Assembly: GCF_001956045.1 (NCBI RefSeq)
Contig: NZ_MRTH01000015.1
Location: 129,209 to 193,208 of the forward strand
DNA: 64,000 bases
From: Paenibacillus sp. FSL H7-0331
GTDB taxonomy: Bacteria; Bacillota; Bacilli; Paenibacillales; NBRC-103111
Direction: 5' to 3'
Shown one piece after another: positions 7,696 to 35,610 of this stretch (the first letter of the stretch is position 1; the number at the start of each line of letters is the position of its first letter). A program made the translations under genes and the position numbers. The notes beneath the pieces were generated by a model. It worked only from the letters and a program-made list of their open reading frames with translations. It was not told where the DNA came from and searched no databases.

Positions 7696-9318
7696 TCAAT
7701 TGGGCTGCATTTTCCGATACTCCAACGGGGTAACACCTACCCTTTTTCTAAACACTTGTCCAAAATATTTGGCATCGGTATATCCGACTTGGCTGGAAAT
7801 ATCGAATATTTTCAAATCGGATTGCTTTAACAGCTGCTTGGCTTTGTTGATCCGAATATCGGCCAAAAAATTCAAAACCGTCTCATTGGTTCTTTCCTTG
7901 AATAAATTGGCGAAATAATTGGGTGTCAAATAGACAACGTCGGCTACGTCCTGCAAGGAGATATCCTGCGCATACTGCGACTCCATGAACGAAATTGCCT
8001 TCTGAACGATCGAAACATGACGCTGCTGCATTTTCTTTTCTATGCTATGGGCCAGATCGTTGACATAATGTAAAAGCCACATTTCAAGCTGTTCAATGGT
8101 TTTCCTTTTCTTAATCTGTTCATCCAATGCCGTGATTTCCATGATGTTACCATCTGAAAGATCCCACTCGATTAATTGGCGAAGCAGCGCGTAGACCAAC
8201 TGTAGACAAATCTTGCGTAAATGATCAGGAGTTGGGGTAAAGTCGTCGACAATAGCGCGCAAAAATTGCCTTGCATACCCAACTGCTCCGTGTACATCCC
8301 CGATCTTCAAAGCCAGGCACAATCGTTTCTCCAGGTCATACGGGTATACGGTATGTTCGACTGAAGCCTGGTATGTGACGTCACCGATGTATACGATGCT
8401 TTCTTTACCTGAATACAGACGATACTGAACAGCCTCCACCGCTTGCTTGCTGGATTCCGGTATCCATTCCGGTTCATCGTAGATGCCGCCAATTCCGATT
8501 GAAACAGACACCTTGTAATAAGTTTGGATATAATATTTTATTTTTCTTGCTATCGCTTGCAGCAGCTCCAAGTAATATTTGCTTTCCATAGGCTCCGCTC
8601 GGCTAACGATTACAATGAGCTGGTTATCGTAATTTTCGACGATCTCGGCGTATAATTGTTCCCGAAGCAGCTCTTCTACAATGTTGCGAAAAGCAAATAA
8701 TAAGAGCTGTTTATCACGAATTCGGGCACTCTGTGCTACAGCATCCTCATCATCGATTTCTACAACCAGGCATGCAAATAAATGGCTGCCGATGGAAAGA
8801 TCCAGGTAGTCACATCTGTTTCTTATATCCAATAAAGACATTTGGCCGGAAAGCAGGTAGCGCAAATACCTTTCCTTGAGCACAGGGATGCTATGCAGCA
8901 GCTGCTGCCTTAATTGTACAACGTCCTTCACCTGGCTCCTTTCTTGTTCCAGGCTTTGCTTGGCTTTTTCGATGATGGCGAATAACTCTTCAATTGTGCT
9001 CGGTTTCAACAAATAATCAAAAGCACCATTGCGAATCGCCGTCTGCACATAGGGAAAATTATCATAGCCGCTTAACAAAATCACCTTCGCATGCGGTACG
9101 ATGCAGAGCGCCTTTTCCGTTAACTCCAATCCGTTCATATGAGGCATCAACACATCGGAGATGATCAAATCCGGCTTCTGGTCCATAATCAACTCCATCG
9201 CTTCGACACCGTCTTCGGCCTCACCAACAATCTCAATTTGATGCTTGGACCAATCCATACTCATTTTCAGACCATTTCTCACGCGCTCCGAATCGTCCAC
9301 CAGAATCATTTTATACAT
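7696..9318 (-). CDS. Response regulator with AraC-type DNA-binding domain (YesN-like)
   Basis: This 540-residue protein begins with a receiver domain: MILVDDSERVRNGL acidic pair, LIISDVLMPHMNG with the phospho-acceptor Asp, and LLSGYD and LLKPS for the conserved Thr/Ser and Lys positions. A middle region of about 300 residues is followed by a C-terminal pair of AraC-type helix-turn-helix motifs (DVADVVYLTPNYFANLFK and IFDISSQVGYTDAKYFGQVF). The start was set at the ATG at 9318, preceded by AGGGGGA; longer frames add unrelated sequence from the kinase gene. It overlaps the kinase stop by 8 bases (ATGTATAA), so the two are translationally coupled. It most likely activates the adjacent importer operon on sensing its substrate. 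Confidence 0.93.
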   Translation of the reverse strand: MYKMILVDDSERVRNGLKMSMDWSKHQIEIVGEAEDGVEAMELIMDQKPDLIISDVLMPHMNGLELTEKALCIVPHAKVILLSGYDNFPYVQTAIRNGAFDYLLKPSTIEELFAIIEKAKQSLEQERSQVKDVVQLRQQLLHSIPVLKERYLRYLLSGQMSLLDIRNRCDYLDLSIGSHLFACLVVEIDDEDAVAQSARIRDKQLLLFAFRNIVEELLREQLYAEIVENYDNQLIVIVSRAEPMESKYYLELLQAIARKIKYYIQTYYKVSVSIGIGGIYDEPEWIPESSKQAVEAVQYRLYSGKESIVYIGDVTYQASVEHTVYPYDLEKRLCLALKIGDVHGAVGYARQFLRAIVDDFTPTPDHLRKICLQLVYALLRQLIEWDLSDGNIMEITALDEQIKKRKTIEQLEMWLLHYVNDLAHSIEKKMQQRHVSIVQKAISFMESQYAQDISLQDVADVVYLTPNYFANLFKERTNETVLNFLADIRINKAKQLLKQSDLKIFDISSQVGYTDAKYFGQVFRKRVGVTPLEYRKMQPN

Positions 9319-11092
9319 CGATATATCCCCCTGGAAGTATGATTTGTATGTGGGACCCTTCATCTCTTCGACTTTCGAAGTGTAAGCCATATCCTTCTCC
9401 ATAAGCCAAATGAATCCGTTCGTTAATGTTATAAATGCCATAACCTCCATCTTGCGAAGGCGGCTCGAGAAGCGCTTCAATTTGTTCCAAATCCATACCG
9501 ATTCCGTTATCGATAACTTCCAGCAGAATGAACTGGCCTTCCCTTTTGGCTACAATCTTAATCGTCCCTAGTTTATTTTTTAACGGTTTGATGCCATGCA
9601 GCAGCGCGTTTTCCACCAATGGCTGCAAAATGAGCTTAATGCACGCTTCCTCCAGTACATGAGGATCGGCTTCAATCGCATACTCAAATTTATTTTTGAA
9701 CTGCAGCTTCTGAATAGTCAGGTAGTGCTCGATCGTTTCCAATTCCTTGGCGATGGTTGTCATTTCGCTGCCTTTATTGAGAATAAGCCGGAAAAATTGA
9801 GCAAACGCCGTTGTCATTTCCGCAATTTCATCATATTCCTTTGTTTTGGTCATCCAATAAATAGAATCCATCGTGTTATACAAAATGTGCGGATTAATTT
9901 GAGATTGTAAGGCCCTCAGCTCCGCCTCTCTGATTTTCTTTTCATCATCCCGCACTTTGTGGATCAGGGTCCCGATTTCTTCCGTCATTTCATTGAAGCT
10001 CTCCGATATTTCCCCAAATTCCTCCTGCGTTCCCAGATGAACCTTGGTGTGGATGTCCCCATCCCTTACTTTTTTAATGTGACGAATTAATTTCATGAGC
10101 GGTCGGGTAATGCTGGATGAAATGAACACGGACAGTAGAATCGATAACGCCACGGTAATAAGTATAATCATCACAATCGTGCCTTTGGCTAGCTCAATAT
10201 GCTTGTAGACAATAGACTGCGGAATCATCGTAACGAGCTTCCAGCCTGTATATTGCGATGTAAAATAATGAACGGAATACATCGTTCCTTGCAGCATAAT
10301 CAGTGAGCTTCCATTGGACGAGTCGGTAATCATCCTCCATACATCAGGATCTGCCTTGGTAGAGACCTGGTCCTTGTTAACATGAGAAATAATGAATCCA
10401 TTCTCGTCAACTATATACGTAATCGCTTTCATATCCGTAAGAATGTTTTTGAAGCTGTCGAATATAAAGCTTTCCCGGACACCAATCAGCATAAGCCCCC
10501 AGTCTTTAAGGGCTAACAAGCCCAATGTTTTTCGCGCATTATAAATCACCTTGGGCCCTGAATCACGGTTGGAGAATATGTCCTTATTGGCAAACAGCCA
10601 TAAGGGCTTGCCCTTGGCCGCATACGACTGTTGATAAATGGCCGTTTGTTCAATTTCCTCTCTTGTCCGATTGGCATAGGAGGTATTCACGAATAAGTTC
10701 AGGCCGTATGGGCCAAAAAAACTTACCGATTGAATCTGTTCAGAGCGCCCCCCAAAAATACTCGGATACACAGTTTCATAAAATATTTTTTCATAATTAG
10801 CTCTGACCGAGTCGGTAGAGGCATCGGATTCCATAATGATTTGCAGCTCTTTGTTCGATACGATGTTTACATACAATTCGTCAATATCTTTGAGCTTGTA
10901 ATCGATATTTTGCATCGTTTGCTTAAGAACCTCTTGGACGGATTGACCCACTTCATTAACGATGGTTTCTTTTAAAATAAGAAAAAATATCCAGCCGATG
11001 ATAGACGTGGATATTACAATAAGTAGTACAAAGGATACGATTAATTTGGATTTAAGCCTCATATTACGAAGTGAACCTGCCATCGTTGCCAC
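9311..11092 (-). CDS. Sensor histidine kinase, YesM-like
   Basis: The 593-residue membrane kinase has a transmembrane helix near residues 16-40, an extracellular sensing domain of about 250 residues, a second helix near 290-315, a HAMP linker, the His_kinase phospho-acceptor segment QSQINPHILYNTMDSIYWM and a C-terminal HATPase (LVENALLHGI N box, DNGIGM G1 box, GGYGIYNINER G2 box). This is the LytS/YesM family pattern. The start is GTG, with AGGGGTGA just upstream. It is paired with the overlapping AraC-type regulator, and probably senses extracellular glycan or a loaded binding protein. Confidence 0.93.
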   Translation of the reverse strand: MATMAGSLRNMRLKSKLIVSFVLLIVISTSIIGWIFFLILKETIVNEVGQSVQEVLKQTMQNIDYKLKDIDELYVNIVSNKELQIIMESDASTDSVRANYEKIFYETVYPSIFGGRSEQIQSVSFFGPYGLNLFVNTSYANRTREEIEQTAIYQQSYAAKGKPLWLFANKDIFSNRDSGPKVIYNARKTLGLLALKDWGLMLIGVRESFIFDSFKNILTDMKAITYIVDENGFIISHVNKDQVSTKADPDVWRMITDSSNGSSLIMLQGTMYSVHYFTSQYTGWKLVTMIPQSIVYKHIELAKGTIVMIILITVALSILLSVFISSSITRPLMKLIRHIKKVRDGDIHTKVHLGTQEEFGEISESFNEMTEEIGTLIHKVRDDEKKIREAELRALQSQINPHILYNTMDSIYWMTKTKEYDEIAEMTTAFAQFFRLILNKGSEMTTIAKELETIEHYLTIQKLQFKNKFEYAIEADPHVLEEACIKLILQPLVENALLHGIKPLKNKLGTIKIVAKREGQFILLEVIDNGIGMDLEQIEALLEPPSQDGGYGIYNINERIHLAYGEGYGLHFESRRDEGSHIQIILPGGYIDV

Positions 11093-13044: not shown

Positions 13045-14688
13045 CTACTTTATTGTCCACTCATTAACATCATAATGCATACCGTAGATCGTCCCGCCCC
13101 GACCCGTCACCGACTTGTTCAGTGCGATCAAATTTTTCTCGGAGTATATCGTGATCAGCGGAACGTCCTCCTGTATCACATTTTGAAGCTCCTTATAAAT
13201 GGCAAACCGCTTGTCCTTGGTTGTTTCTTTCATGCCCAGCGCAAACAGCTCGTCAACACGAGGGTTATTATACCTCATATCATTCAGTGCAGCTGTTGAT
13301 TTATACGTATTACTCGGGCCGTCAGGATCGATAATCGTGCTGAAGCTGGAGATCAGCAGATCAAAATCACCCTTGACCGCGCGTTGGACAGCTGTAGCAA
13401 AATCGAAATTGACCTGCTTCACCTTCACACCGACGGCTTCCAGATTTTGTTGAATAATGTTCCCCGCCATCTCCCGCACAGCATCTCCAGTAGGAACGAT
13501 GAAATCCAGCGTTTTCGAGGAATCCCAACCCGCTTCCTTCAGGAGCTGCTTCGCTTTCTCAGGATCATAGCTGTACTTCTTGATGTCCTTGTCGTAATAA
13601 GGATGACTTACCGCATAAGGACCATTTTGCACCTCACCGATGCCTTTCATCAATTGATTAACAATCGCCTCACGGTTAATAGCGTATGCCATCGCCTGCC
13701 GAACCCGTTTATCAGGGATTTTGGTCGTATTGATTTCAATTGAGTTGTAACGGCGGGTCGGTTCCTCTGTCGTTTGTACGTGATTCATTTTTTTAATTGT
13801 TTCCCATTCCTTGGGTGGTATGTTACCTGGTCCTTGCCCGGCATTCATATCGATTTCCTGCGATTGCAGCTGAGCGACCATGTTCGCCGCAGGCATTACC
13901 TTGACAACTACCTCTTTAATTTTCGGCGCACCGCGATAATACGACGGATTCGCAGCCAACTGGACGACGCCGTTCTCAAATTTGTTAAAGGTATACGGTC
14001 CATCGGTCACATTCGGATTTTTCCAAAATGCATGACTGTTGAGCGTAGATGGATCCGCGGTTTCAAATACATGCTTAGGAATTATCGGGAAATCGCACAA
14101 ACGCTCCTTCACCATATTCGGGTCAACCGCATTGGCGGTCACCAGCTCGAAGGTTTTGTCGTCAATGACCTTGACACCGCTCAGCATGGTGACACCTTCC
14201 GGCAGTCTGCCTTTCTCGTTAAGGCCGTCCAAATAATTGATATAGGTTCGGATTGTCGTCAATGTTTTGGGATGGGCTACAAGATTAGCCGTGAATTCAA
14301 AATCCTGCGCGGTTACAGGTTTACCGTCCGACCAATTGGCATCCTTGCGCAGCTTGACTACATACGTCTTACTGTCTTTTTGCTCGAACGATTCAGCCAG
14401 CTGCAGCTTGAACTCAAGCGGTGCCGTCATCTTCAGCAAGGTATCGTACAAATAACGGTTGATGAACGTAGCCGCATTGGAACCTGAAGCATCGGTATCG
14501 ATAGGATTAAACATCGTGGGGGGATTGGTCATCCCGATCGTAATTCGATCCGGATGGCTGGAAGCGGCGCTGACAGCGCCTGAGCTTGCCGGACTTTGTG
14601 AGGCTTCCGGCTTGGGAGTGCATGCCGTTGTCAGTAAGAGCAAGCCCGCCACGCATATACAAGATACCTTTTTCATTGTCAGTCTCAC
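13045..14688 (-). CDS. ABC importer binding lipoprotein, SBP family 5 (Opp/Dpp type)
   Basis: The precursor has 547 residues, with a lipoprotein signal (LLLLTTAC) and a mature SBP_5 domain: ESFEQKDSKTYVVKLRKDANWSDG-type start split by the WSDGKPVTAQDF motif, GPYTFNKFENG, RRYNSIEINT, VRQAMAYAINRE and AKQLLKEAGWD. Family 5 proteins bind oligopeptides, nickel complexes or other nitrogen compounds. The ATG at 14694 is only one base after AGGAGG, so GTG at 14688, seven bases away, is the likely start. It follows the ureohydrolase gene in the transcript controlled by an ANTAR-type leader. The matching Opp/Dpp permeases and ATPases are in the plus-strand operon at 17567, which carries the same leader and lacks its own binding protein. 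Confidence 0.93.
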   Translation of the reverse strand: MRLTMKKVSCICVAGLLLLTTACTPKPEASQSPASSGAVSAASSHPDRITIGMTNPPTMFNPIDTDASGSNAATFINRYLYDTLLKMTAPLEFKLQLAESFEQKDSKTYVVKLRKDANWSDGKPVTAQDFEFTANLVAHPKTLTTIRTYINYLDGLNEKGRLPEGVTMLSGVKVIDDKTFELVTANAVDPNMVKERLCDFPIIPKHVFETADPSTLNSHAFWKNPNVTDGPYTFNKFENGVVQLAANPSYYRGAPKIKEVVVKVMPAANMVAQLQSQEIDMNAGQGPGNIPPKEWETIKKMNHVQTTEEPTRRYNSIEINTTKIPDKRVRQAMAYAINREAIVNQLMKGIGEVQNGPYAVSHPYYDKDIKKYSYDPEKAKQLLKEAGWDSSKTLDFIVPTGDAVREMAGNIIQQNLEAVGVKVKQVNFDFATAVQRAVKGDFDLLISSFSTIIDPDGPSNTYKSTAALNDMRYNNPRVDELFALGMKETTKDKRFAIYKELQNVIQEDVPLITIYSEKNLIALNKSVTGRGGTIYGMHYDVNEWTIK

Positions 14689-14777
14689 AGTCATGCCTCC
14701 TATCGGATAATGAATGATAAACAGGACTGGAGGTCGGGAAGCCTATGCCGCCAATCCCGCCTCCGTCAACACCCGCC

Positions 14778-15764
14778 TTAGCCGATGATTGTTGCGTCAG
14801 CTTTCTCTGCTGCTTTAAGGGCTTGCTCACGACGGTTCAGCGCAATCAGTGTAATAAACTCAAAGGCAATGTTGGCCGCATTCAGGGCAGTCACTCTCGT
14901 TAAATCACGATCAGGCAGCACCTCGACCAGATCAAAGCCGATGATGTTCAGACCGGTCAGGCCACGCAGCATTTGCTGGGCTTCATAAGTATTGAACCCT
15001 CCAACCTCCGGGGTACCTGTCCCTGGAGCAAACACTGGATCAAGAAAATCAATATCGAATGTGAGGAACACCGGATTATTGCCAACACGCTGTTTAATTT
15101 TGTTGCACAGCTCAGGAATCGACAGCTTTTTGACGTCATCGGTCGTTAGCACCTCATATCCAAGTTCACGGGAATCATCCAGACCGGTCAGCGTAAACGG
15201 CGTTCCACGCATGCCCATCTGAATAGAGGTTGAAGCATCAATGTAACCCTCTTCCGCTGCATAACGGAACATCGTGCCGTGGGAATGCTTGCGCCTTTCA
15301 TCCATGCTTTTACCGGTATCCGTATGCGAATCAAAATGCACCAGGCTGACAGGTCCGTAGGCACCGGCGGCCGCTTTCACGTGAGGATAAGAGATGGAAT
15401 GGTCGCCGCCGAGCAGTATAGGAATAATACCTTTGGCAAATATCGGTTTGAGCTGCTCCTCGATCGCCTCATAGCTCAGGTCGATATAGCCCGGAACGAT
15501 CTTGAGATCACCATAATCAATACCGGATACATATTCGGTAGTATCGATGCCCTGTGCCTGACTGATAGGCCGAAGACGCTGGGACATTTCGCGAATCGAG
15601 GAAGGGCCGAATCGGGTTCCTACAGCGTAGCTGACGCCCGTATCAAACGGAACGCCAATCACTGCGTAGTCCACGTGCTCCAAATCCTGAACATAAGGAA
15701 GATGCATAAACGTGCGAATACCTGAAAATAATGGGATACCTCTTTCGATCATTGGACGATACAA
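14778..15764 (-). CDS. Agmatinase/ureohydrolase-family enzyme
   Basis: This 328-residue enzyme shows all the binuclear-manganese motifs of the ureohydrolase family: GGDHS, HFDSHTDTG, and FDIDFLDPVFAPGTGTPEVGG. These enzymes hydrolyse guanidino groups to urea plus an amine (agmatine, guanidinobutyrate, guanidinopropionate, arginine, formiminoglutamate or guanidine). The usual HFDAH is HFDSH here. The specific substrate cannot be read from sequence. GTG at 15773 overlaps the AAGGAGTG ribosome-binding site; TTG at 15764, eight bases after AAGGAG, is the likely start. It is the first gene after leader RNA 15791-15876 and is cotranscribed with a family-5 binding protein, so it probably acts on an imported guanidino or amide compound. 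Confidence 0.9.
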   Translation of the reverse strand: MYRPMIERGIPLFSGIRTFMHLPYVQDLEHVDYAVIGVPFDTGVSYAVGTRFGPSSIREMSQRLRPISQAQGIDTTEYVSGIDYGDLKIVPGYIDLSYEAIEEQLKPIFAKGIIPILLGGDHSISYPHVKAAAGAYGPVSLVHFDSHTDTGKSMDERRKHSHGTMFRYAAEEGYIDASTSIQMGMRGTPFTLTGLDDSRELGYEVLTTDDVKKLSIPELCNKIKQRVGNNPVFLTFDIDFLDPVFAPGTGTPEVGGFNTYEAQQMLRGLTGLNIIGFDLVEVLPDRDLTRVTALNAANIAFEFITLIALNRREQALKAAEKADATIIG

Positions 15765-15790
15765 TGTAACCACTCCTTATTGAGGTTTAT

Positions 15791-15876
15791 AAAAATACAG
15801 AAAGCCGCCTTTCTCCTATTCGGAGGAAAGACGGCTTCATTGCCGGATTCACTGGTTTGGCATCATTGACAAACCG
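15791..15876 (-). promoter_or_regulatory. ANTAR-type antitermination leader (copy A) with terminator
   Basis: Minus-strand RNA. Hairpin P1 has arms GGTTTGTC (15868-15875) and GCCAAACC (15854-15861) around loop AATGAT (15862-15867). Hairpin P2 has CGGC/GCCG arms around loop AATGAA (15836-15841). Both loops have A at 1 and G at 4, the ANTAR target rule. The 3' arm of P2 is also the 5' arm of an intrinsic terminator (AAGCCGTCTTTCCTCC with GGAGAAAGGCGGCTT, then TGTATTTTT at 15791-15838). P2 and terminator are mutually exclusive. P1 keeps a T-C mismatch at the same place as in copy B, and one pair changes T-A to C-G between copies, which supports the stem. Confidence 0.85.
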
Positions 15877-15906
15877 GAATAACATATCAAGTTGTTCATG
15901 TGACAT

Positions 15907-15936
15907 ACTCTAACATGCACCTGACGAATTCGTCAA
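15907..15936 (-). promoter_or_regulatory. Promoter of leader A
   Basis: TTGACG (15931-15936) and TAGAGT (15907-15912) on the minus strand are 18 bases apart, placing the transcript start about 25 bases before hairpin P1 of the leader. The -35 overlaps a perfect 12-base palindrome, GACGAATTCGTC (15923-15934). The promoter sits right after the stop of the transglutaminase-fold gene, so the ureohydrolase transcript can start independently of the ANTAR gene. Confidence 0.5.
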
Positions 15937-15938
15937 CC

Positions 15939-16577
15939 CTATTTTTTGGGCAAGATCGATTCCGGCAAGGGCAGTGAATCCGGGAGATGCCGCTCGTACA
16001 TGCGTATGCTATGCGTATGCGCCATCAAGGTTTCGATAATGATGGGATGGGGCTCACTAAAATTAACGTCATAATCAACCTCGCCAATATCCTGCCGCAC
16101 AGGAAAAGCGAGATGTTCGGTCTCCAGGGAAAACCGGGCGTCCACGCCTGGCTTGTTCCCTCTCGCATCAAGACGAATCCACGTATCCAGCTGCCTGATA
16201 TAGACGGTATTCAACGCGTGGATACAGAACCCGGACTGTGCCGTTTCATACAACGTCAGCCGCTGATAGCTCAAGCCTGAGGGAATACCACAGGCCCTCA
16301 GCATAGCGGCAAGCAGATGGGACTTGGCGTAACAGATACCATGTTCTTCCCTCAACGTATCCGATGCGCTGATCGTCACCTGGTTCAGCTGCGCATCGTA
16401 TGAATGCTGGATCTTGTCGCGCACGAAGGTATACAGGACCTCGATGGTCCTGATCTCGTCGCTACCGACGGGAACCAGCTGATGTAAGGTTTGCTGTATA
16501 AGCGGGTGGTCATAGTCAAGCCAGATCGAGGGCTGCAGATAGCTGTCCATGGGTGCATTCATTCGGGTCAACATCAT
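15939..16577 (-). CDS. Transglutaminase-like (papain-fold) protein
   Basis: The 212-residue protein belongs to the transglutaminase-like superfamily. The catalytic Cys-His-Asp triad can be seen as HGICYAKSHLLAAMLRACGIP, CIHALN and WIRLDARGN. Bacterial members act as peptidases, amidases or crosslinking enzymes on peptides. There is no signal peptide, so it is cytosolic. It has a good ribosome-binding site (AAAGGAG) and begins 57 bases after the ANTAR regulator gene, probably in the same transcript. Its place between the regulator and the regulated ureohydrolase suggests it processes a peptide-like or amide substrate of the same pathway, or helps sense it; both are inference. Confidence 0.85.
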   Translation of the reverse strand: MMLTRMNAPMDSYLQPSIWLDYDHPLIQQTLHQLVPVGSDEIRTIEVLYTFVRDKIQHSYDAQLNQVTISASDTLREEHGICYAKSHLLAAMLRACGIPSGLSYQRLTLYETAQSGFCIHALNTVYIRQLDTWIRLDARGNKPGVDARFSLETEHLAFPVRQDIGEVDYDVNFSEPHPIIIETLMAHTHSIRMYERHLPDSLPLPESILPKK

Positions 16578-16634
16578 AGTTACAGAACTCCTTTCGGGGG
16601 TAAGAGGTACGCCGCACAGCCTGCATGATTCAGG

Positions 16635-17195
16635 TCAGCGCTCCATAAGCGGTCCGTACAAATCGACGATTGTGCTGCTGATTGCAGCCATTTTCTTGCG
16701 TTCCTTCATCGCCTTGTTACGAAGATACTTGAAAGCCTCGTCCTCGGACATCCCCGTCGTTTTTACCAGTATACCTTTAGCTCGTTCAATTAGCTTTCTT
16801 TCGTCAAGCTTTTCCTGCAGCTGTTCGATCTGCCGCTGCACCGATCTCCGGTTCTCATAGTTGTTGAGCCCGACTACAAGCGCCCACTGCAGCTCCGGGG
16901 GACTCATACTGGATGTGAGGATGCCTTCAATGTGATGGGCGGGACCCGTCATGAAGCCCGAGCTTTGGCACCACCACCATACAGGCAGCTCGAACTGCCT
17001 GGCCAATACATCCAGCCAAACATTCAGCCTCTGCTCGGTACAGCAAAGAATAATGCCGTCGGGTTCGTAAGTCTTGACAGTAAGATCCTCGGCTTCATAC
17101 ACCGATATGACATCCATACCTATAGCGTTCAGACAATCTATCATATGAGCTGCAGGCTGACAGGAGTCGGAAAAAAATACCAGCAATGATTTCAT
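16635..17195 (-). CDS. ANTAR-domain RNA-binding antiterminator with receiver-like domain
   Basis: This 186-residue protein has an N-terminal receiver-like domain (starting MKSLLVFFSDSC) in which the expected phospho-acceptor Asp after strand 3 appears to be replaced (DGIILCCTE). A coiled-coil linker (RRSVQRQIEQLQEKLDERK) leads into a C-terminal ANTAR domain (LIERAKGILVKTTGMSEDEA then KYLRNKAMKERKKM). ANTAR domains bind paired six-base-loop hairpins and prevent termination, as AmiR and NasR do. The lost Asp makes it AmiR-like, so ligand or partner control rather than phosphorylation is expected. The start was set at 17195, ten bases after AAGGTG; the ATG at 17231 lacks a ribosome-binding site. 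Two matching RNA targets lie on either side. Confidence 0.92.
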   Translation of the reverse strand: MKSLLVFFSDSCQPAAHMIDCLNAIGMDVISVYEAEDLTVKTYEPDGIILCCTEQRLNVWLDVLARQFELPVWWWCQSSGFMTGPAHHIEGILTSSMSPPELQWALVVGLNNYENRRSVQRQIEQLQEKLDERKLIERAKGILVKTTGMSEDEAFKYLRNKAMKERKKMAAISSTIVDLYGPLMER

Positions 17196-17362
17196 AAGCA
17201 GCAACACCTTCGGTATGGATTTTCTTGTCATGCCGAAAACATTTGTGTCGTGTCATAACTCATGAGCACTGAACACGAGGTGACAGAAGTATTGTATGAA
17301 TGTTATGTTATATATCATGAATCTAACTAAAAAAAGAGTCAACTGTTTTTTAAAACCGAATA

Positions 17363-17392
17363 TTGACAATAATTATTTTTTAGTGTTAATAT
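17363..17392 (+). promoter_or_regulatory. Promoter of leader B and the Opp/Dpp operon
   Basis: A perfect TTGACA (17363-17368) and TAATAT (17387-17392) are 18 bases apart, predicting a transcript start near 17399, about 32 bases before the first ANTAR hairpin. With so strong a promoter, expression of the operon would be set mainly by termination in the leader. On the opposite strand TTGACT near 17340 may serve the ANTAR gene, but its -10 is poor. Confidence 0.7.
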
Positions 17393-17430
17393 ACGTGACA
17401 TGAGATGATTTTTATCAATCGAATATATTT

Positions 17431-17514
17431 CCGGTCTGTCAATGATGCCAGTCTGGAATAGGCAATGGAGCCGTTTTTCTCTGCATAAGAGAAGGCGGCT
17501 TTCTGTGTTTTTTT
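17431..17514 (+). promoter_or_regulatory. ANTAR-type antitermination leader (copy B) with terminator
   Basis: Hairpin P1 has arms 17431-17440 and 17447-17456 around loop AATGAT (17441-17446). Hairpin P2 is GGC (17461-17463), loop AATGGA (17464-17469), GCC (17470-17472). Both loops obey A1/G4. The AGCCG of P2 also pairs with CGGCT (17496-17500) in a terminator stem that ends in seven T (17508-17514). It shares GTCAATGATGCCA, GGCAATG and GGCGGCTTTCTGT with copy A on the other strand. It sits between a strong promoter and the first gene of the ABC operon, so readthrough needs the second hairpin to form, presumably held by the ANTAR protein encoded next door. Confidence 0.87.
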
Positions 17515-17566
17515 AAAGCAATTGAATAATAACACAACGACAATAAAACCCGGAGGTATGCAAATC

Positions 17567-18571
17567 ATGAAACATGTATTGGAAGTCGACAGCCTTCGGA
17601 CTGCCTTTCGCACAGAGCATGGAGAGGTCCTATCGGTTGAAGGGGTCTCGTTTCAGGTCAAGTATGGTGAGACCGTCGCGGTTGTTGGGGAATCCGGCTG
17701 CGGCAAAAGCGTCACTTCCCTCTCCATTCTGAATCTCCTGGGCAATAACGGCTACATCAAAAGCGGTAACATTCAATTCGAGGACGTTGAGCTGACGAAG
17801 CTGACACCCGAGCAGCTGCGAAAGCTGAGGGGAAAAGACATCTCGATGATCTTCCAGGACCCAATGTCCTCACTCAATCCAGTGCTGACGATCGGCAGCC
17901 AAATGACGGAAACCATCCTCCAGCATGAGCGTGTGAGCATGCAGGAAGCCCGCGATCGTTCAATTGCGCTGCTGAATCGAGTCGGTATCGCCAGAGCTGA
18001 AGCGCTGATGAAGCAGTATCCGAATTCCTTATCTGGAGGGATGAGGCAGCGTGTCATGATCGCTATGGCATTGTCCTGCAAGCCCAAGCTGCTGATTGCC
18101 GACGAACCGACCACGGCGCTCGACGTCACGATACAGGCACAGATTCTGGCATTGATCAAGGAGCTGAAAAACGAGTTTCGCACTTCAATTGTGCTCATTA
18201 CACACGACCTGGGCGTCGTTGCCGAGATGGCCGATCGTGTACTCGTCATGTATGCCGGTCAGGTAGTGGAGGAAACCGATGTATTCACGCTGTTCGAAGC
18301 CGCGAGGCATCCATACACACAGGGATTGATGTCCTCCATTCCGCATCTCAACAGCCCCGACGACAAGCTGTCCAGCATACCGGGATCGGTACCGGCCATC
18401 CATGAAATGCCAACGGGCTGCCGCTTTCAAGCCCGTTGTGTGCTCGCTTCCGACAAATGCCGAAGACACAATCCTCCACTGTTTGAGGTAGCCGCAGGGC
18501 ACACCGTTCGCTGTTGGCTGGCCGAAGACGAGCTGACGCTTACTGCGCTGGATTCACAAGCTGTACATTAA
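17567..18571 (+). CDS. Opp/Dpp-type ABC importer ATPase, OppD/DppD-like
   Basis: The 334-residue ATPase has Walker [10 protein letters not shown] loop, signature LSGGMRQR, Walker [13 protein letters not shown] and the C-terminal oligo_HPY zone with an iron-sulfur-type Cys pattern (GCRFQARC, then C at VLASDKC and RCW). It energises uptake of the substrate bound by a family-5 binding protein. The frame opens upstream; ATG at 17567, nine bases after GGAGGT, is the best start. It is the first gene of a DFBC operon that lacks its own binding protein, the one at 13045 being the obvious partner. It is downstream of ANTAR leader B. Confidence 0.94.
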   Translation: MKHVLEVDSLRTAFRTEHGEVLSVEGVSFQVKYGETVAVVGESGCGKSVTSLSILNLLGNNGYIKSGNIQFEDVELTKLTPEQLRKLRGKDISMIFQDPMSSLNPVLTIGSQMTETILQHERVSMQEARDRSIALLNRVGIARAEALMKQYPNSLSGGMRQRVMIAMALSCKPKLLIADEPTTALDVTIQAQILALIKELKNEFRTSIVLITHDLGVVAEMADRVLVMYAGQVVEETDVFTLFEAARHPYTQGLMSSIPHLNSPDDKLSSIPGSVPAIHEMPTGCRFQARCVLASDKCRRHNPPLFEVAAGHTVRCWLAEDELTLTALDSQAVH

Positions 18572-18591: not shown

Positions 18592-19590
18592 ATGAGCGCT
18601 ATATTGCATAAAGCACAGGTCAGCAGCGATCCTATTCTACGCATCGAGCGTGTAAAAAAATATTATCCAATCCGTAAAGGCATCTTTTCCAAAACCGTAG
18701 GCCATGTAAAAGCCGTAGATGACATCAACCTGCTGGTGTTCCCGGGGGAAACGCTCGGCATCGTAGGCGAGTCAGGCTGCGGCAAGTCAACCCTCGGCAG
18801 AAGTATCGTCCGGCTGGAATCGCTGACGGAAGGCTCGGTCTACTATAAAGAGCAGGATGTGCACCGCATGTCCGAATCCGATATGCGCCGGGTCCGTTCA
18901 GAGCTGCAAATTATATTCCAGGACCCTTACGCTTCACTTAACCCGAGAAAACGGGTAAGCGAGCTGCTGATCAATCCTCTGCTGGTCCATGTTCAAATGA
19001 CGCCGGACGAAGCTCGCAAAAAAGCGATGGAGCTGCTCGATATCGTCGGCCTGTCGAAACATTCGTTGAATAAATTTCCCCATGAATTTTCCGGTGGTCA
19101 GCGACAGCGAATCGGCATCGCCCGGGCGATTATCCTGCAGCCGAAGCTGATTGTCTGCGATGAGCCTGTATCGGCGCTTGATGTATCTATTCAAGCACAA
19201 ATCCTGAATTTGCTGAAGTCGCTGCAAAATAATTTCCAGCTGACCTATTTGTTTATTGCCCATGGCCTTGGGGCGGTCAAATTTATGAGCGACCGCATCG
19301 CGGTGATGTACCTGGGCAAAATTGTCGAGCTGGCAAGGACAAGTGATATTTTCAACCAGCCAAAGCATCCCTATACAAAGGCGCTGCTCGATGCGTATCC
19401 CGTGCCCAACCCGCTCTTCCGCGACAAGGAACGCATCATCCTGTCGGGCGATGTGCCCAATCCCGCCGCTCCACCATCGGGCTGCAGATTTCATACCCGC
19501 TGCCCGATGGCCCAGCCGCGCTGCCGGGAGGAGCAGCCGGAGTTGCTCGGCGGACAGCATCTGGTGGCTTGTCATTACCCGCTAAGCTGA
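18592..19590 (+). CDS. Opp/Dpp-type ABC importer ATPase, OppF/DppF-like
   Basis: The 332-residue ATPase has Walker [10 protein letters not shown], signature FSGGQRQR, Walker [13 protein letters not shown] and a C-terminal oligo_HPY domain with [14 protein letters not shown]. The switch region reads [12 protein letters not shown], where most relatives have HDL, so Gly replaces the Asp after the switch His. ATG at 18592 follows GGAGGG by seven bases; the frame itself opens earlier inside the previous gene. It forms the heterodimeric motor with the OppD-like protein. Confidence 0.94.
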
Positions 19591-19614: not shown

Positions 19615-20565
19615 ATGTTGGATTATACGATTCGGCGGCTGCTTATAGCGCTGCCTGTACTGCTGGGCGTCACGCTGTTAAATTTTTTCATTATCTATAT
19701 GGCTCCCGGAGATCCCGTGGATTTGTACGCCAACCCGGATGTGACGGAAGCGGATAAGCTGGTACGGCGTGAAGCGCTTGGTCTGGATGCCCCGCTGATC
19801 GTTCAATATGTAAAATGGCTGGGTCGTCTGTTGATCGGTGATCTTGGCACTTCGTTCAGCTCCTTTCAACCCGTGTCGCATATGATTGTGGAACGACTCG
19901 GAGCCACACTGCTGTTGATGGGGGCGGCTCTGCTAATCGCCTATCTGATTGCGATTCCGCTAGGCATCTTGAGTGCTGTCAAGCAGTATTCCTGGCTCGA
20001 TTATGTGGCCTCCACCGGATCGTTTCTCGGCGTATCCGTACCCAGCTTTTTTCTCGGATTGGGCGTCATTTATTTGTTCGGCGTTACGTTCGGCATCCTG
20101 CCAACCGGAGGCATGAATACGATCGGCCAAGAAGGTGAGATGATCGATACGCTGAAGCATTTGATACTCCCGGCCCTTACGCTCGGCACCTCGATTGCAG
20201 GAGGTATGGTGCGTTATGTAAGGGCAAGCGTGCTGGAGGTGCTGAATCAGGACTACCTCCGTACGGCGAGGGCCAAGGGTTTGCCTGAATGGAAAGTCAT
20301 TAACAAGCACACGCTCAAAAATGCGCTGATTCCGATCATTACGGTAGCAGGTCTGGACATTCCGATGCTGATCGGCGGTGCAGTCGTTACAGAAACGGTT
20401 TTTCAATGGTCGGGTATGGGCCAATTGACGATCCAGTCGATTCTGTCCCGCGATTATCCCGCCCTGATGGGCATTAATCTGGTCGCCGCCGTTTCCGTGC
20501 TGCTGTCCAACCTATGGGCCGATTTGATGTATGCCTTTGTCGATCCGCGAATCAAATACAATTAA
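19615..20565 (+). CDS. Opp/Dpp-type ABC importer permease, OppB/DppB-like
   Basis: The 316-residue membrane protein has six transmembrane helices, the N-terminal RRLLIALPVLLGVTLLNFFI helix and the APGDP motif typical of DppB/OppB. The conserved loop is YLRTARAKGLPEWKV followed by KNALIP, the EAA-type ATPase contact of this family. AAAGGAGG precedes the ATG. It ends 17 bases before the OppC-like gene. Confidence 0.94.
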   Translation: MLDYTIRRLLIALPVLLGVTLLNFFIIYMAPGDPVDLYANPDVTEADKLVRREALGLDAPLIVQYVKWLGRLLIGDLGTSFSSFQPVSHMIVERLGATLLLMGAALLIAYLIAIPLGILSAVKQYSWLDYVASTGSFLGVSVPSFFLGLGVIYLFGVTFGILPTGGMNTIGQEGEMIDTLKHLILPALTLGTSIAGGMVRYVRASVLEVLNQDYLRTARAKGLPEWKVINKHTLKNALIPIITVAGLDIPMLIGGAVVTETVFQWSGMGQLTIQSILSRDYPALMGINLVAAVSVLLSNLWADLMYAFVDPRIKYN

Positions 20566-20582: not shown

Positions 20583-21509
20583 ATGCCCGCAGTATCATGG
20601 AGAGAACCAACAGATGAAAGAGCCATTCAAGGACTGGAACCGCTAGCCAAGCAGGATATGGATAAACAGGAAAGCTATTTCCGTTCGGTCAGCCGTCAAT
20701 TCATGAAGCATAAAATGGCGGTAGCCGGTTTGCTGGTGTTTGCGCTGCTTCTCATTATGGCGTGCTTTGCACCGCTATTAGCTCCGTATGATCCAAGTGT
20801 TATCCAGGATGAATTCAGCGCCGCGCCTTCGAGCAAATATTGGCTGGGCACCGATCAGGTAGGGCGTGATGTGCTCAGCAGACTGATTTATGCCTCACGC
20901 ATATCATTATCGATCGGTCTCGGGTCCGTCGCCATCTATGTGGCTATCGGAACCGTAGTCGGCGCCATCGCAGGCTATTATGGCGGCAAGGTGGATATGA
21001 TCATCAATCGTGTGATCGATGTGTTCATGTCGTTCCCTCATCTGATGGTTATCCTCGTCTTGGTGACGATCATCGGACCCGGACTGTCCAACATCGTCCT
21101 GGTGCTCGGTCTACTGGGGTGGCCTAGCGTTGCGAGACTTGTGCGAGGCAGTGTGCTGTCAATCAAGCAAATGGAGTTTGTAAAAGCCGCTCAGGCGCTG
21201 GGATTAAGCAAACGGCAAATCATTTTCCATGAGATATTGCCGAATGCGATGAGCCCTTTGCTCGTCAATGCCACCTTCGGCGCCGCCACGGCCATACTCT
21301 CCGAGTCGTCGCTCAGCTTTCTCGGTATGGGCGTTCAGCCGCCGACCGCCAGCTGGGGCAACATGCTGACAGCCGCCCAATCGATCACAACCTTGCAAAG
21401 CGAGCCATGGCTCTGGATTCCTGCCGGCTTGATGATTGTCTTTACCGTACTCGCTATCAATTTTGTTGGAGACGGCGTGCGTGATGCGTTGGACCCCAAA
21501 AGGAAATAA
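20583..21509 (+). CDS. Opp/Dpp-type ABC importer permease, OppC/DppC-like
   Basis: This 308-residue permease has an N-terminal cytoplasmic extension, the GTDQVGRDVLSRLIYASRIS segment (OppC_N plus first periplasmic loop), the FVKAAQALGLSKRQIIFHE loop and the C-terminal WLWIPAG/FVGDGVRDALDP ending diagnostic of DppC/OppC. The start at 20583 follows AAGGTG; the longer frame from 20514 is read out of the previous gene. It completes the transporter. Confidence 0.94.
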   Translation: MPAVSWREPTDERAIQGLEPLAKQDMDKQESYFRSVSRQFMKHKMAVAGLLVFALLLIMACFAPLLAPYDPSVIQDEFSAAPSSKYWLGTDQVGRDVLSRLIYASRISLSIGLGSVAIYVAIGTVVGAIAGYYGGKVDMIINRVIDVFMSFPHLMVILVLVTIIGPGLSNIVLVLGLLGWPSVARLVRGSVLSIKQMEFVKAAQALGLSKRQIIFHEILPNAMSPLLVNATFGAATAILSESSLSFLGMGVQPPTASWGNMLTAAQSITTLQSEPWLWIPAGLMIVFTVLAINFVGDGVRDALDPKRK

Positions 21510-21564: not shown

Positions 21565-23218
<1,654 letters not shown>

Positions 23219-23346: not shown

Positions 23347-24780
23347 TTAAGCCCCTCTGACAGGACCTGGGATCAGACCGTCCGGAATCGGACATATATA
23401 ACTTCTGCCACTCAGCTGCTTCGCGTGTTCCTCCTTGGCTTGTTCCAGTACCTCGGGCTTGGACAACAGCTCAACAGCTGTCGCCGCGATCACTTTTCCT
23501 GCATGCAGCATGCCTTTGTGGCCGATCGACATCCCGACCTGACTGACCGCCTGCCAGGAATGGAGAGCCGTACCCAGCGCCATGCTGGTGATCCAGCTCT
23601 GTACAGTAGGTACGTTCCAGCTGACATCTCCCACATCGGTTGAACCCATAGCGACAGTAATTTCTTGTTTAACCTCGTACGGTTCCAGACGATCGGACAG
23701 CACCTTACCTGACAGCTCCTGCGGCAAATTGTGGTTTTTCTCAGCATCCGATAAAGTAGCACGTATTTCGCTCGCAAACTGTAGTTCCGTTTCATCAAAA
23801 ACCGGGCAGCCCAGTTGAATAAATTGTTCATGCATCACCTGTTCCAAGATCCGGTTGACAATCAGCTCAGACGAGCCGGAATCAAATATAATCTCAAGCT
23901 CGGTCCCGGTCATTAACGCCGCTCCTTTGGCGACATTGCAAATTCGCTCATATAAATCGGCCAGCTGCTCGGAACGCGGAACGCGCATTTTATACAACAC
24001 CTCGGCTTCCGACTGGACGACATTTGGCGATAAGCCGCCGGTATTCGTAATCGCATAATGAAGGCGCGCATCCGAAATAATGTGCTCGCGCAAATAATTG
24101 CAGCCAACGTTCATTAACTCGACTGCATCCAGCGCGCTTCGTCCCAAGTGTGCGTCTCCACCAGCATGGGCACTGCGCCCCTTGAACCTGTAGTAAACCT
24201 GGCAGGTAGCCAAGCTCGACGTACTCATAATATGGCTGGTTGTCCCCGGATGCCAGGTTACTGCGGCATCGACATCGGCAAACAGCCCATTTTTCACCAT
24301 GAAGCCTTTACCGCCGCCACCTTCCTCAGCAGGGCATCCATATAAGCGAACCGTGCCTGGCAGCTTATGCTTCTCTATATATTGACGCACAGCTACTGCC
24401 GCAGCCAATGCCCCACTGCCAAGCAGGTTGTGTCCGCAGCCGTGCCCATTTGCTCCACTAACGATCGGAGCTTTCCGGGACTCTCCCTTCTTCTGACTGA
24501 GCCCGGACAACGCATCGTATTCTGCGAGTACAACAATGACCGGCTTACCTTGTCCGTAGCTTCCAACGAGAGCTGTTGGAATACCACCTGCTTCACGCTG
24601 TACCGTAAAGCCCTCCTGTTCCAGCACCTCGGCAAACAATGCAGCCGACTGCCGTTCCTCATAGCGCGTTTCTGCGTATTCCCATATTTGATTACTGACC
24701 TTGATAAACAAGTCTCTCTGGTTCTCTATCGAATCCGCAATTTCTTGAACTCTGTCTGAAATATGTTGTACGTCTGTCAT
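23347..24780 (-). CDS. M20-family amidohydrolase, AbgB-like
   Basis: The 477-residue metallohydrolase has the M20 metal-binding GHGCGHN motif, the catalytic EEGGGGKGF and GRSAHAGGDAHLGRSALDA dimerisation-lid segment, and a long C-terminus (HKGMLHAGKVIA). Spacing and length match the p-aminobenzoyl-glutamate hydrolase subunit B group, whose members cleave amide bonds of N-acyl amino acids or dipeptides. It lies downstream of the ABC/MFS operon on the opposite strand and may act on an imported amide or peptide. The ATG at 24780 is directly followed by a normal N-terminus. Confidence 0.9.
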   Translation of the reverse strand: MTDVQHISDRVQEIADSIENQRDLFIKVSNQIWEYAETRYEERQSAALFAEVLEQEGFTVQREAGGIPTALVGSYGQGKPVIVVLAEYDALSGLSQKKGESRKAPIVSGANGHGCGHNLLGSGALAAAVAVRQYIEKHKLPGTVRLYGCPAEEGGGGKGFMVKNGLFADVDAAVTWHPGTTSHIMSTSSLATCQVYYRFKGRSAHAGGDAHLGRSALDAVELMNVGCNYLREHIISDARLHYAITNTGGLSPNVVQSEAEVLYKMRVPRSEQLADLYERICNVAKGAALMTGTELEIIFDSGSSELIVNRILEQVMHEQFIQLGCPVFDETELQFASEIRATLSDAEKNHNLPQELSGKVLSDRLEPYEVKQEITVAMGSTDVGDVSWNVPTVQSWITSMALGTALHSWQAVSQVGMSIGHKGMLHAGKVIAATAVELLSKPEVLEQAKEEHAKQLSGRSYICPIPDGLIPGPVRGA

Positions 24781-27755: not shown

Positions 27756-29513
27756 TTATAAGTTTTTTTCATTATCCATCGCTTCCATCGGCAGCTGGAT
27801 TTCAACCTTCGCGCCGCTTTCGGGTCCATTCATGAACACCACGTGAGCCCGATTCGGATACAGCAGCGCAATTCTGCGTTTTACATTCCAGATCCCGACG
27901 TTCTCTCCTTTATCGTTCATCAGATCCTCATCCGATTGCAGCCGCTGAAGCACATCATCGGGAAATCCCTTGCCCGAATCCTCAATGGAAATTTTCAACA
28001 AGTCCCCTTCGGCAGATGACTCGGAGTCTATGACAATATGAATATGAATAGAATCGTCCATCGTGACCGCATGTTTAATTGTATTCTCCACAAAAGTTTG
28101 CACGATCAAGGGTGGAACCTGAATTTCCTCCAAGTCATCCTTCAGGGTCACCTCGTAATCGAGATGCTTCGGAAACCTCATTTTTTGAATGTTCAAGTAA
28201 TTGCACGTATGTCTGATTTCATCTTGTAAAGGGACAAACGTCAGGTTACTGCGGAACATGTACCGAAAGTACTCAACCAGCGATAAGGACATTTCCTGAA
28301 TCAGCTCGTACTTCTGAGCCTGAGCCAGATGATACACAATATTTAAGGAATTCAAGTAAAAATGCGGATTGATTTGCAGCTGCAAATGCTTAAGCTCCGC
28401 ACGCTGACTGCTCAATTGCTCCTCATATACATCGATTTTCAATTGTTCAATTTGAGCAACCATATCATTGAACGCTGCATTTATCACTTCAAATTCACCG
28501 GAGGATGGGTAAGGCACGATTCGGGTATCCCATTTGCCTTCCTTAAATCTCCGCATCGCCATTAATAATTTGTAGATCGGACGCAGAATGAGCTTTCTCA
28601 AAAACAACAGCAGCAGCAGCAGCATAATGACAAAGCCAAGAGGAACTATCAGCACAACCCGTTGAAAAATAGGCAGCTTCTCCATAATTCCATTTTCCGG
28701 GATCAGCACCGTCAGATAGAAGCTGCCCTTCTTGGAACGTTCTGCAACCTCCAAGTATGTGTGGTTGTTACCGGTTAGCTTGTATATTTCATCTTCGAGT
28801 GTCAGATCGATGCCATTCTGTGCAATAAACTCCTGATGATCCATTGGTTCATGGTGTTCCGTAGACAAAACTGAAATCCCGGTTTCCCCCAAATCGATCA
28901 AATTGAGCGGAATCATCATCCTTTTTACATTCACCCATGCCCCTACATATACATTGCCTATCTTGGCGACATGGCTCAGATAATGCTCTTGGTCAATTTG
29001 TTGGACACACCATTTCAGTGTACATTCTTGCTCCATTTGTGCGTTATTCTTCAGCATGGAGGTGAGAAGTATTCGAGCTTGATCCCTCTCATCAAAGCTT
29101 AATGCCAGGTTCGGTCCGATTAAAAAATCATCATTATTTTCCGAATAAACAAAGAACATATCCATCGTTTTACTGTTATTTATAGTAGTCGATATATTAT
29201 TGAACAATCGAATTCGGGCTTCCTGGTATCTTACTGAATAGTAGGCATCCGGCTGATCAAGAATGATCAAATCGGTTTCTTCAGCAACCATATTGTATAA
29301 GTACTCATCCGCTTCTCCGAGCGTACGATCGATCTGCCCCATATACAGGGTAACGAGATTCTTATTGGATTGGGCTACTTGGTCCCTGACGACCTTACCC
29401 GCATAAGAGCTGTAATAGATCATCCAGACCATCAAAGGAATGAAGATTGCAAAAAAAGCCAAACCAATTCGAAATCTCAGAGATTTAAAAAATTCCTTGT
29501 TCATAAATCCCAT
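27756..29513 (-). CDS. Sensor histidine kinase, YesM-like
   Basis: The 585-residue membrane kinase has transmembrane helices near residues 10-32 and 275-305 bracketing an extracellular sensor domain, then HAMP (LILRPIYKLLMAMRRFKEG), the His_kinase segment LQLQINPHFYLNSLNIVY and an HATPase domain (FVENTIKHAV, EDSGKGFPDD, NVGIWNVKRRI). It starts at ATG 29513 with GGAGG nine bases upstream. Its partner is the AraC-type regulator at 24822. The pair likely senses the sugar imported by the Lpl-like transporter. Confidence 0.93.
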   Translation of the reverse strand: MGFMNKEFFKSLRFRIGLAFFAIFIPLMVWMIYYSSYAGKVVRDQVAQSNKNLVTLYMGQIDRTLGEADEYLYNMVAEETDLIILDQPDAYYSVRYQEARIRLFNNISTTINNSKTMDMFFVYSENNDDFLIGPNLALSFDERDQARILLTSMLKNNAQMEQECTLKWCVQQIDQEHYLSHVAKIGNVYVGAWVNVKRMMIPLNLIDLGETGISVLSTEHHEPMDHQEFIAQNGIDLTLEDEIYKLTGNNHTYLEVAERSKKGSFYLTVLIPENGIMEKLPIFQRVVLIVPLGFVIMLLLLLLFLRKLILRPIYKLLMAMRRFKEGKWDTRIVPYPSSGEFEVINAAFNDMVAQIEQLKIDVYEEQLSSQRAELKHLQLQINPHFYLNSLNIVYHLAQAQKYELIQEMSLSLVEYFRYMFRSNLTFVPLQDEIRHTCNYLNIQKMRFPKHLDYEVTLKDDLEEIQVPPLIVQTFVENTIKHAVTMDDSIHIHIVIDSESSAEGDLLKISIEDSGKGFPDDVLQRLQSDEDLMNDKGENVGIWNVKRRIALLYPNRAHVVFMNGPESGAKVEIQLPMEAMDNEKNL

Positions 29514-35254: not shown

Positions 35255-35316
35255 AACCAGCATCCCTTCTGATTGGATAGTACATACAATTCAATTACAG
35301 ATAGTTACGTGCAAAC

Positions 35317-35610
35317 AAAAAAATCCCACCCCCAAGACTTATAGTCTTGGGGACGAGATTTGTTAAATTCGTCGTGGTACCACCCCAGATTTGCTGATAC
35401 GTCGCCGTAGCAGCCTCTTCAAGTACGGCATTACATAGAATGCTTATACTCTAGCTCTATAACAGGAGCTCCTGTCACACCATCCCTTTTGTCCGGTTCC
35501 GATGTGCAGCTCAGAGGCTTTCTTCAATAAATCATTTTTTACTCCCTTTCAGCTACCGGAGCTCTCTGTGAAAAAATCAATTTATTTACTTTTCTCTTCA
35601 TCGCATTTGA
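35317..35610 (-). promoter_or_regulatory. T-box riboswitch leader of asd, probable lysine specifier
   Basis: On the minus strand the T-box element GGGGTGGTACCACG (near 35371-35386) precedes a terminator with a 10-bp stem (CCCCAAGACT/AGTCTTGGGG, 35330-35352) and seven T (35317-35323). Upstream is a Stem I region with AGTA, AGAGAG and GCTGAAAG landmarks. Folding AATAAAT with ATTTATT puts AGTA opposite GAAGAAAGC; the triplet after GAA-G is AAA (35519-35521), a lysine codon, with AAG overlapping it. T-box identity is secure; specificity is by hand fold. Uncharged tRNA would stabilise the antiterminator and switch asd on. Confidence 0.85.

Follow-up and report, generated by a model that had tools for sequence, protein, structure and literature searches.

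In a 64,000-nucleotide stretch of contig NZ_MRTH01000015.1 from Paenibacillus sp. FSL H7-0331 (hereafter the window), the gene of an ANTAR regulator of 186 amino acids (16635-17195, minus strand) lies between two RNA leaders, A and B, each carrying two hairpins with six-base loops and an intrinsic terminator, which precede a ureohydrolase gene and an Opp-type importer operon, respectively. The reading that we favour, with a probability of about 85%, is that the neighbouring regulator antiterminates both leaders. The locus would represent an inducible nitrogen-scavenging module composed of an Opp-type importer and a ureohydrolase, the two switches probably allowing the scavenging enzyme and the importer to be produced only when their substrate is present. 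The mechanism is known and ordinary; the gene context is new, a second regulatory layer exerted by GlnR is likely from the boxes at the promoters, and the drift of the loop code in relatives is informative.

Leaders A and B and the neighbouring regulator

Both leaders were found where the sequence-only reading had placed them (A on the minus strand, 15876-15791; B on the plus strand, 17431-17514), with A at position 1 and G at position 4 (A1/G4) in all four hexaloops and with the 3' arm of the second hairpin being part of the 5' arm of the terminator in both. In leader A, hairpin P1 (15852-15877, loop AATGAT) is followed by P2, the putative antiterminator (15832-15846, loop AATGAA), and by the terminator with its U tract (15789-15837, stem 15837-15802), which overlaps the 3' arm of P2. 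The same elements of leader B, likewise defined by sequence and fold and with the same overlap, occupy positions 17431-17456 (P1, loop AATGAT), 17460-17472 (P2, loop AATGGA) and 17468-17514 (terminator and U tract, stem 17468-17503). The P1 stem has at least 7 pairs; the T*C mismatch that had been noticed in both copies adjoins the closing C-G pair and is kept in 6/6 of the type I leaders (A and B of the window and their counterparts in two related species). The P2 stem has 4 contiguous pairs, but 3 in leader B, and both stems thus have the 3 or more pairs of the search definition in PMC3369931. The distance from loop to loop is 23 to 26 bases in the six leaders. As to the claim of a promoter for each leader, promoter-like hexamers with an 18-base spacer are present in both, TTGACG-18-TAGAGT for A (15907-15936, minus) and TTGACA-18-TAATAT for B (17363-17392, plus), on the basis of consensus matching only. 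The picture of two divergent leaders flanking the regulator gene stood for leader B, which diverges from it, and not for leader A, which lies on the strand of the ANTAR gene, with a transglutaminase-like gene (15939-16577) in between.

An untuned scan for dual hexaloops over the 64-kb window gave two matches, which are leaders A and B, whereas 60 dinucleotide shuffles of the window averaged 0.03 matches under the strict setting, with never more than 1, and 0.2 under the loose setting; the other 15 loop classes defined by positions 1 and 4 gave no match in the window at the strict setting. A pattern needing three unbroken loop-adjacent pairs misses both leaders, owing to the T*C at the second P1 pair, and one that tolerates mismatches finds them. 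Furthermore, the minimum-energy fold includes the terminator in 6/6 type I leaders, where forcing P2 costs 8.6 to 13.8 kcal/mol. The terminator part accounts for -23.9 kcal/mol in leader A (P2 alone, -6.2) and for -18.2 kcal/mol in leader B (P2 alone, -4.2).

The regulator is described, from Pfam, AlphaFold and fold matches, as an AmiR-like pseudo-receiver, a long helix and an ANTAR domain. Pfam ANTAR (PF03861) matches residues 124-177 with 72 bits, against a gathering score of 27.3, and the AlphaFold model, obtained from 16 sequences, has a predicted local distance difference test score (pLDDT) of 87.4 and a predicted template modelling score (pTM) of 0.69; the top fold matches of this predicted structure, over the whole length, are AmiR (1qo0) and EutV (6ww6/6wsh). 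Seven of the 11 RNA-contact residues of EutV are identical in the window regulator, the rest being K147R, Y164F, N173K and R177K (alignment, mapped by eye). The receiver has a Cys at the place of the expected phospho-acceptor Asp (LCCTE, versus LDVPA in the type II rows of alignment A2; placed by eye), which makes activation by phosphorylation unlikely; a partner that releases the protein, in the manner of AmiR, or a ligand bound directly is a likelier trigger. The WWC motif (residues 74-76), invariant in the alignment and also present in four nitrate-type ANTAR proteins, could, at a guess, be a candidate sensing site.

Relatives, loop drift and alternative explanations

In Paenibacillus piri and P. 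ginsengihumi, both leaders, the ANTAR gene and the operon order are kept, and A1/G4 is found in 12/12 loops of the six type I leaders. The 1.5 kb round the leaders of P. piri L001 are letter-identical in L037 of genome G095, as are those of P. ginsengihumi L002 in L038 of G069. In the intergenic alignment of the three species, the conserved islands are the promoter, the GlnR box, P1, P2 and the terminator, together with a further upstream block round TGTTATATATCATG. The transglutaminase gene is missing in both species between regulator and leader A, and elsewhere in the stretches read. A large protein search returned 6 members of the regulator family at 66% identity or more, including one with 99% identity to the query. 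A covariance model built on the six leaders gave two matches each in the P. piri and P. ginsengihumi genomes at E ≤ 0.1, all at this locus. This search covered 103 genomes, with 42 first-look candidates scored per genome under Infernal's stricter filters, so weak further leader targets may be missed. Matches at E ≤ 0.1 were obtained in 23/103 genomes, 9 of them of type I or II; the remaining 14 genomes contributed 16 matches with E from 0.001 to 0.1, where about 10 would be expected if the rough E-values are right. That the neighbouring regulator antiterminates both transcripts explains the locus best, in view of the domain, the predicted fold match, the motif anatomy, the conservation of both leaders with the gene in the two other species, and the lack of a further leader-model match at E ≤ 0.1 in their genomes.

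Three co-occurrence searches, each of 392 genomes of the order and apparently of the same set, extended the comparison. A second type of regulator, 27-32% identical to that of the window (A2 rows), was found in 12/392 genomes at E ≤ 1e-30. All 12 of these type II neighbourhoods were read and contain two ureohydrolase genes, a binding protein, OppDFBC and an MFS transporter, the regulator gene lying between or beside the ureohydrolases, which are 66.7 to 72.2% identical to the window's (61.5% in one partial match). Transglutaminase-like homologues are near the module in 6/12 type II genomes. In G098, the first ureohydrolase (67.8%), whose leader still scores 73 bits, and a transglutaminase-like gene (46.5%) are separated from the regulator by some 19 kb. 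The binding protein, at E ≤ 1e-150, occurs in 14/392 genomes, exactly those with a type I (2) or type II (12) regulator; the corresponding naive hypergeometric probability of 5e-26 ignores relatedness, the 14 genomes coming from three genera. In the regulator tree (48 sequences, one 102-residue row having been dropped), type I and type II each form one fully supported clade. How the two clades relate to one another and to the nitrate type is uncertain, the branches being long (3.45 and 2.76), and for this reason no single origin of the ureohydrolase-linked regulators is claimed.

Several observations weigh against the favoured reading, the first of them from the type II loops. The sequence-only reading had named the loss of A1/G4 loops in relatives that keep the genes as an argument against itself, and such a loss was found in part, in the type II loci and not in the two nearest orthologues. 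In the type II UREO1 leaders, the P2 loop has A1 in 12/12, but G4 in 3/12 and A4 in the other nine, and an A1/G4 hexaloop in P1 is found in two (G075 and G098). In the UREO2 (importer) leaders, present in 10/12 genomes, a good A1/G4 hexaloop in P1 is found in 0/10, a weak alternative in G100 (score 4.0) being uncounted. Secondly, in the window itself, the P2 stem of leader B runs to three contiguous pairs before an A*G, and both P1 loops become tetraloops in RNAfold, which joins A1 to T6. A simple terminator scan misses both leader terminators, where the U-run begins some bases past the perfect stem. The announced change of a stem pair from T-A to C-G between the copies is present, but the next P1 pair is T*T in leader B and covariation is not above shuffles (one pair changed on both sides among the six type I leaders, equalled in 311/500 shuffles). 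Rfam, applied to the window at the gathering threshold and to 15000-18000 at E ≤ 10, gave no ANTAR-type match, although it may hold no such family; only a T-box (35346-35610) and a chance match to an internal ribosome entry site were returned. Finally, no AmiC-like sensor or kinase is found among the annotated module genes, no search for one elsewhere having been made.

The type II importer leaders deserve separate consideration. Their P2 loop has A1/G4 in 10/10 (AAAGAG in eight, AAAGGG and AATGGG in one each), and their P1 stem varies with pairing kept (aatcatc/gatgatt versus aaaccatc/gatggttt), the best loops having 4 to 8 bases and no conserved letters. In G064 and G076, the second ureohydrolase gene follows the first with no leader between them. 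A P2 pattern without the A1 demand returned the same loops in 28/28 leader regions, plus an extra unrelated match in leader B of P. ginsengihumi. On the protein side, the type II regulators (A2 rows, by eye) keep E160 and Y164; in P0014, P0015 and P0017, K takes the place of R142 and D that of K147. Single changes at E160 or Y164 of EutV lower affinity 55- to 60-fold, according to passages of PMC8934654, where single hexaloops are also proposed to serve as binding sites when the time limit set by transcription does not apply. It is possible, though somewhat doubtful, that the type II importer leaders antiterminate through a single ANTAR hexaloop. If so, they would work with the P2 hexaloop alone and the requirement for two hexaloops would not be general. 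Types I and II would then form a natural series in the drift of the loop code over a shared set of genes, and GlnR would gate initiation almost throughout.

Among the alternatives, the one that survives best accepts the leaders as ANTAR antiterminators, with a nitrate-type paralogue as their main regulator and the neighbouring gene as one of two readers. Nitrate-type ANTAR genes lie beside a NarK-like transporter gene in many Paenibacillaceae genomes, with leaders that have A1/G4 hexaloops, and one such gene, again next to a NarK-like gene, is the second ANTAR gene of P. piri (G095), so that cross-talk is possible, a further point on the opposing side. Nevertheless, leaders, regulator and genes are clustered in 3/3 type I species, and P. 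ginsengihumi (G069) has a single match to the window regulator at E ≤ 1e-15, which makes a leading role for the paralogue improbable. The nitrate-type leaders themselves, found by a simple pattern in 21/23 regions upstream of NarK-like genes, have G4 in 21/21 and A1 in 19/21 P2 loops when those nearest the gene are taken, and A1/G4 in 13/21 P1 loops, so that P2 appears strict for G4 and P1 looser. Two tandem leader-like patterns before one NarK-like gene, resembling serial attenuators, were seen in 7/23 regions (L062, L063, L067, L070, L073, L074 and L075). As for the genes, the transporter of L021, a cut piece, matches NarK (TIGR00886) with 257 bits, below the cut-off of 312; a NasC-like protein (926 bits, cut-off 1100) occurs together with NirB in L061, NirB also occurs in L048, and a co-located TrpD-like gene encodes a member of glycosyl transferase family 3 that falls short of the trpD cut-off.

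The leaders could also be protein-free attenuators or unrecognised riboswitches, with P1 as the aptamer, P2 and the terminator as the expression platform, and an ANTAR gene with other targets. The type II importer leaders, which retain the P1 stem without a good A1/G4 hexaloop, would fit this, as would a guanidine-hydrolysing ureohydrolase that elsewhere sits in a riboswitch-controlled operon, according to passages of PMC12186494. However, P1 and P2 are tiny and bear the ANTAR loop signature in 6/6 type I leaders, no riboswitch family matches the leader region in the Rfam scans, and ANTAR genes co-occur in 14/14 genomes, all of which renders a riboswitch very improbable. That the hairpins are plain terminators of neighbouring genes, alike because one terminator was duplicated, is scarcely credible, for although leaders A and B resemble each other in sequence and may stem from one duplication, each is preceded by its own promoter-like site bearing a GlnR box and followed by a start codon, pointing into the gene, and P1, superfluous to a terminator, is as conserved as P2 across three species.

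GlnR boxes and the nitrogen context

The GlnR/TnrA consensus is TGTNAN7TNACA, as given in passages of PMC9948412. A perfect box lies over the second promoter hexamer of leader A (TGTTAGAGTATGTCACA, 15899-15915, minus) and another over that of leader B (TGTTAATATACGTGACA, 17384-17400, plus), and perfect boxes are also present at the leaders of P. piri and P. ginsengihumi. In addition, the ANTAR gene has a promoter-like site (17342-17314, minus) whose second hexamer is covered by a GlnR-like box with one mismatch (17301-17317, plus), for which we infer a similar role; this block is conserved in the three species. In the leader promoter regions as a whole, a perfect box was found in 23/28, the mean in dinucleotide shuffles being 0.37 and the maximum 3 (300 rounds); these 23 boxes do not count as 23 separate events, since the regions are related. 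It must be set against this enrichment that 6/23 owe their perfect box solely to one ending in TTGACA, which the promoter supplies anyway, leaving 17/28. The five regions without a box are UREO1 leaders of one genus (g35). In UREO1 leaders L077-L081 (five genomes, one genus), the P2 loop is AATAGA, with A4, while a GlnR box and a good A1/G4 P1 are both missing.

In the nif promoter of P. polymyxa, the downstream GlnR box represses and the upstream one activates, according to passages of PMC6191146. For the leaders, the position of the boxes at the promoters points to repression under nitrogen excess, and given the enrichment, nitrogen status therefore probably gates initiation, and ANTAR elongation. 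Under this scheme, when nitrogen is plentiful, the boxes at both leader promoters and at the regulator's promoter-like site would hold initiation low, and a polymerase that does initiate would stop at the leader terminator by default. The substrate, or another ligand of the phosphorylation-incompetent pseudo-receiver, would activate the ANTAR protein, which would then bind the emerging P1 and P2 hexaloops and hold P2, whose 3' arm is shared with the terminator, allowing readthrough.

The enzyme of the module probably frees urea from a guanidino compound. It retains GGDHS, DSHTD and DIDFLDP (by eye), which we take to be metal-binding motifs of the ureohydrolase family, and it scores above the NCBIfam agmatinase cut-off (192.8 versus 174.3). 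Its closest solved structures by sequence are guanidinobutyrase (3nio) and then guanidinopropionase. Agmatinase is therefore one candidate assignment, to be set against guanidinobutyrase as the nearest structure and the precedent of GdmH, an enzyme formerly labelled agmatinase that turned out to be a guanidinase in the literature excerpts consulted. In P. ginsengihumi (L038, 232-6249), genes for a urea amidolyase-associated protein (UAAP2), a urea (or guanidine) carboxylase and allophanate hydrolase adjoin the module, which fits urea as the product of the ureohydrolase; such carboxylases act on urea or guanidine, again from excerpts. No UAAP2, urea carboxylase or allophanate hydrolase gene was found in the annotated part of the window.

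Genes of the module and comparison with known systems

The minus-strand half of the module consists of the ANTAR gene, the transglutaminase-like gene (Pfam Transglut_core, an accessory member), leader A, the ureohydrolase of the arginase family (14778-15764, Pfam Arginase) and a family 5 solute-binding protein (13045-14694, Pfam SBP_bac_5; lipoprotein-type by eye). The ureohydrolase start, read off the sequence, is likely TTG 15764 (M-Y-R-P, like the type II relatives), with AAGGAG at 15778-15773, the listed open reading frame starting at GTG 15773. The plus-strand half consists of leader B, the OppD-type (17567-18571) and OppF-type (18592-19590) ATPases, both with Pfam ABC_tran and oligo_HPY, the OppB/DppB-type permease (19615-20565, BPD_transp_1), the OppC/DppC-type permease (20583-21509, BPD_transp_1 and OppC_N; NCBIfam Opp4C above cut-off) and an MFS transporter (21565-22815, MFS_1). 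The MFS gene follows OppC in the two type I and 12 type II relatives read and is the conserved end of the importer operon. Past it, on the opposite strand, lies an M20 amidohydrolase gene (23347-24780), with no match near the module in related loci. Outside the module there are histidine kinase genes at 9311-11092 and 27756-29513, each beside an AraC-type response regulator gene (7696-9480 named by eye). The T-box leader (35346-35610, minus; Rfam RF00230, 114 bits) precedes a semialdehyde dehydrogenase-type gene (34187-35263), and upstream of it are an OsmC-like gene and a second Opp-type set with a family 5 binding protein.

For the Paenibacillaceae, the locus contributes a probable ANTAR regulon of two leaders that would serve a ureohydrolase and an Opp importer, and a pair of reporters would suffice to probe its proposed logic of nitrogen status combined with substrate. 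Moreover, the comparison of types I and II offers natural variants of the loop code, bearing on why two hexaloops should be needed when a protein dimer seems to hold no more than one at a time, and the locus hints at an uncharacterised pathway for guanidino compounds.

The novelty that the sequence-only reading had claimed for this pairing holds in part. A literature search, which excluded the supplementary tables of PMC3369931, gave nothing for ANTAR with ureohydrolase, but a link between agmatinase and an ANTAR-target RNA is in print for Streptomyces (passages of PMC8164766). There an agmatinase mRNA has a predicted ANTAR-target RNA, likewise tied to an agmatinase-type ureohydrolase; that prediction is actinobacterial, and its passages describe no adjacent regulator, importer or GlnR box. 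The AmiR/AmiC system of Pseudomonas aeruginosa likewise combines a pseudo-receiver with ANTAR, and a dual-hairpin amiE leader precedes the operon of an ammonia-releasing enzyme (passages of PMC3369931), whereas the window has two leaders, divergent operons, a ureohydrolase with an Opp importer, and GlnR boxes, and no AmiC homologue among the annotated module genes. In Enterococcus faecalis, the eut leaders read by EutV likewise have two A1/G4 hexaloops with P2 overlapping the terminator (passages of PMC3369931 and PMC8934654); EutV is phosphorylated by EutW on the receiver Asp, in contrast to the Cys of the window regulator, which has no kinase among the annotated module genes. In NasR/NasT and in the nitrate type of the Paenibacillaceae, dual hexaloop leaders likewise lie beside the regulator gene in a nitrogen-source operon. 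The nitrate-type regulators are about 30-37% identical to that of the window, with WWC in the four read, and have NarK-like, nitrate or nitrite reductase genes downstream in place of the ureohydrolase. Finally, the two-site GlnR control of the P. polymyxa nif promoter likewise concerns a nitrogen operon whose promoter carries boxes of the TGTNAN7TNACA type (passages of PMC6191146), while in the window the perfect boxes cover the second promoter hexamer, with antitermination as the proposed next step.

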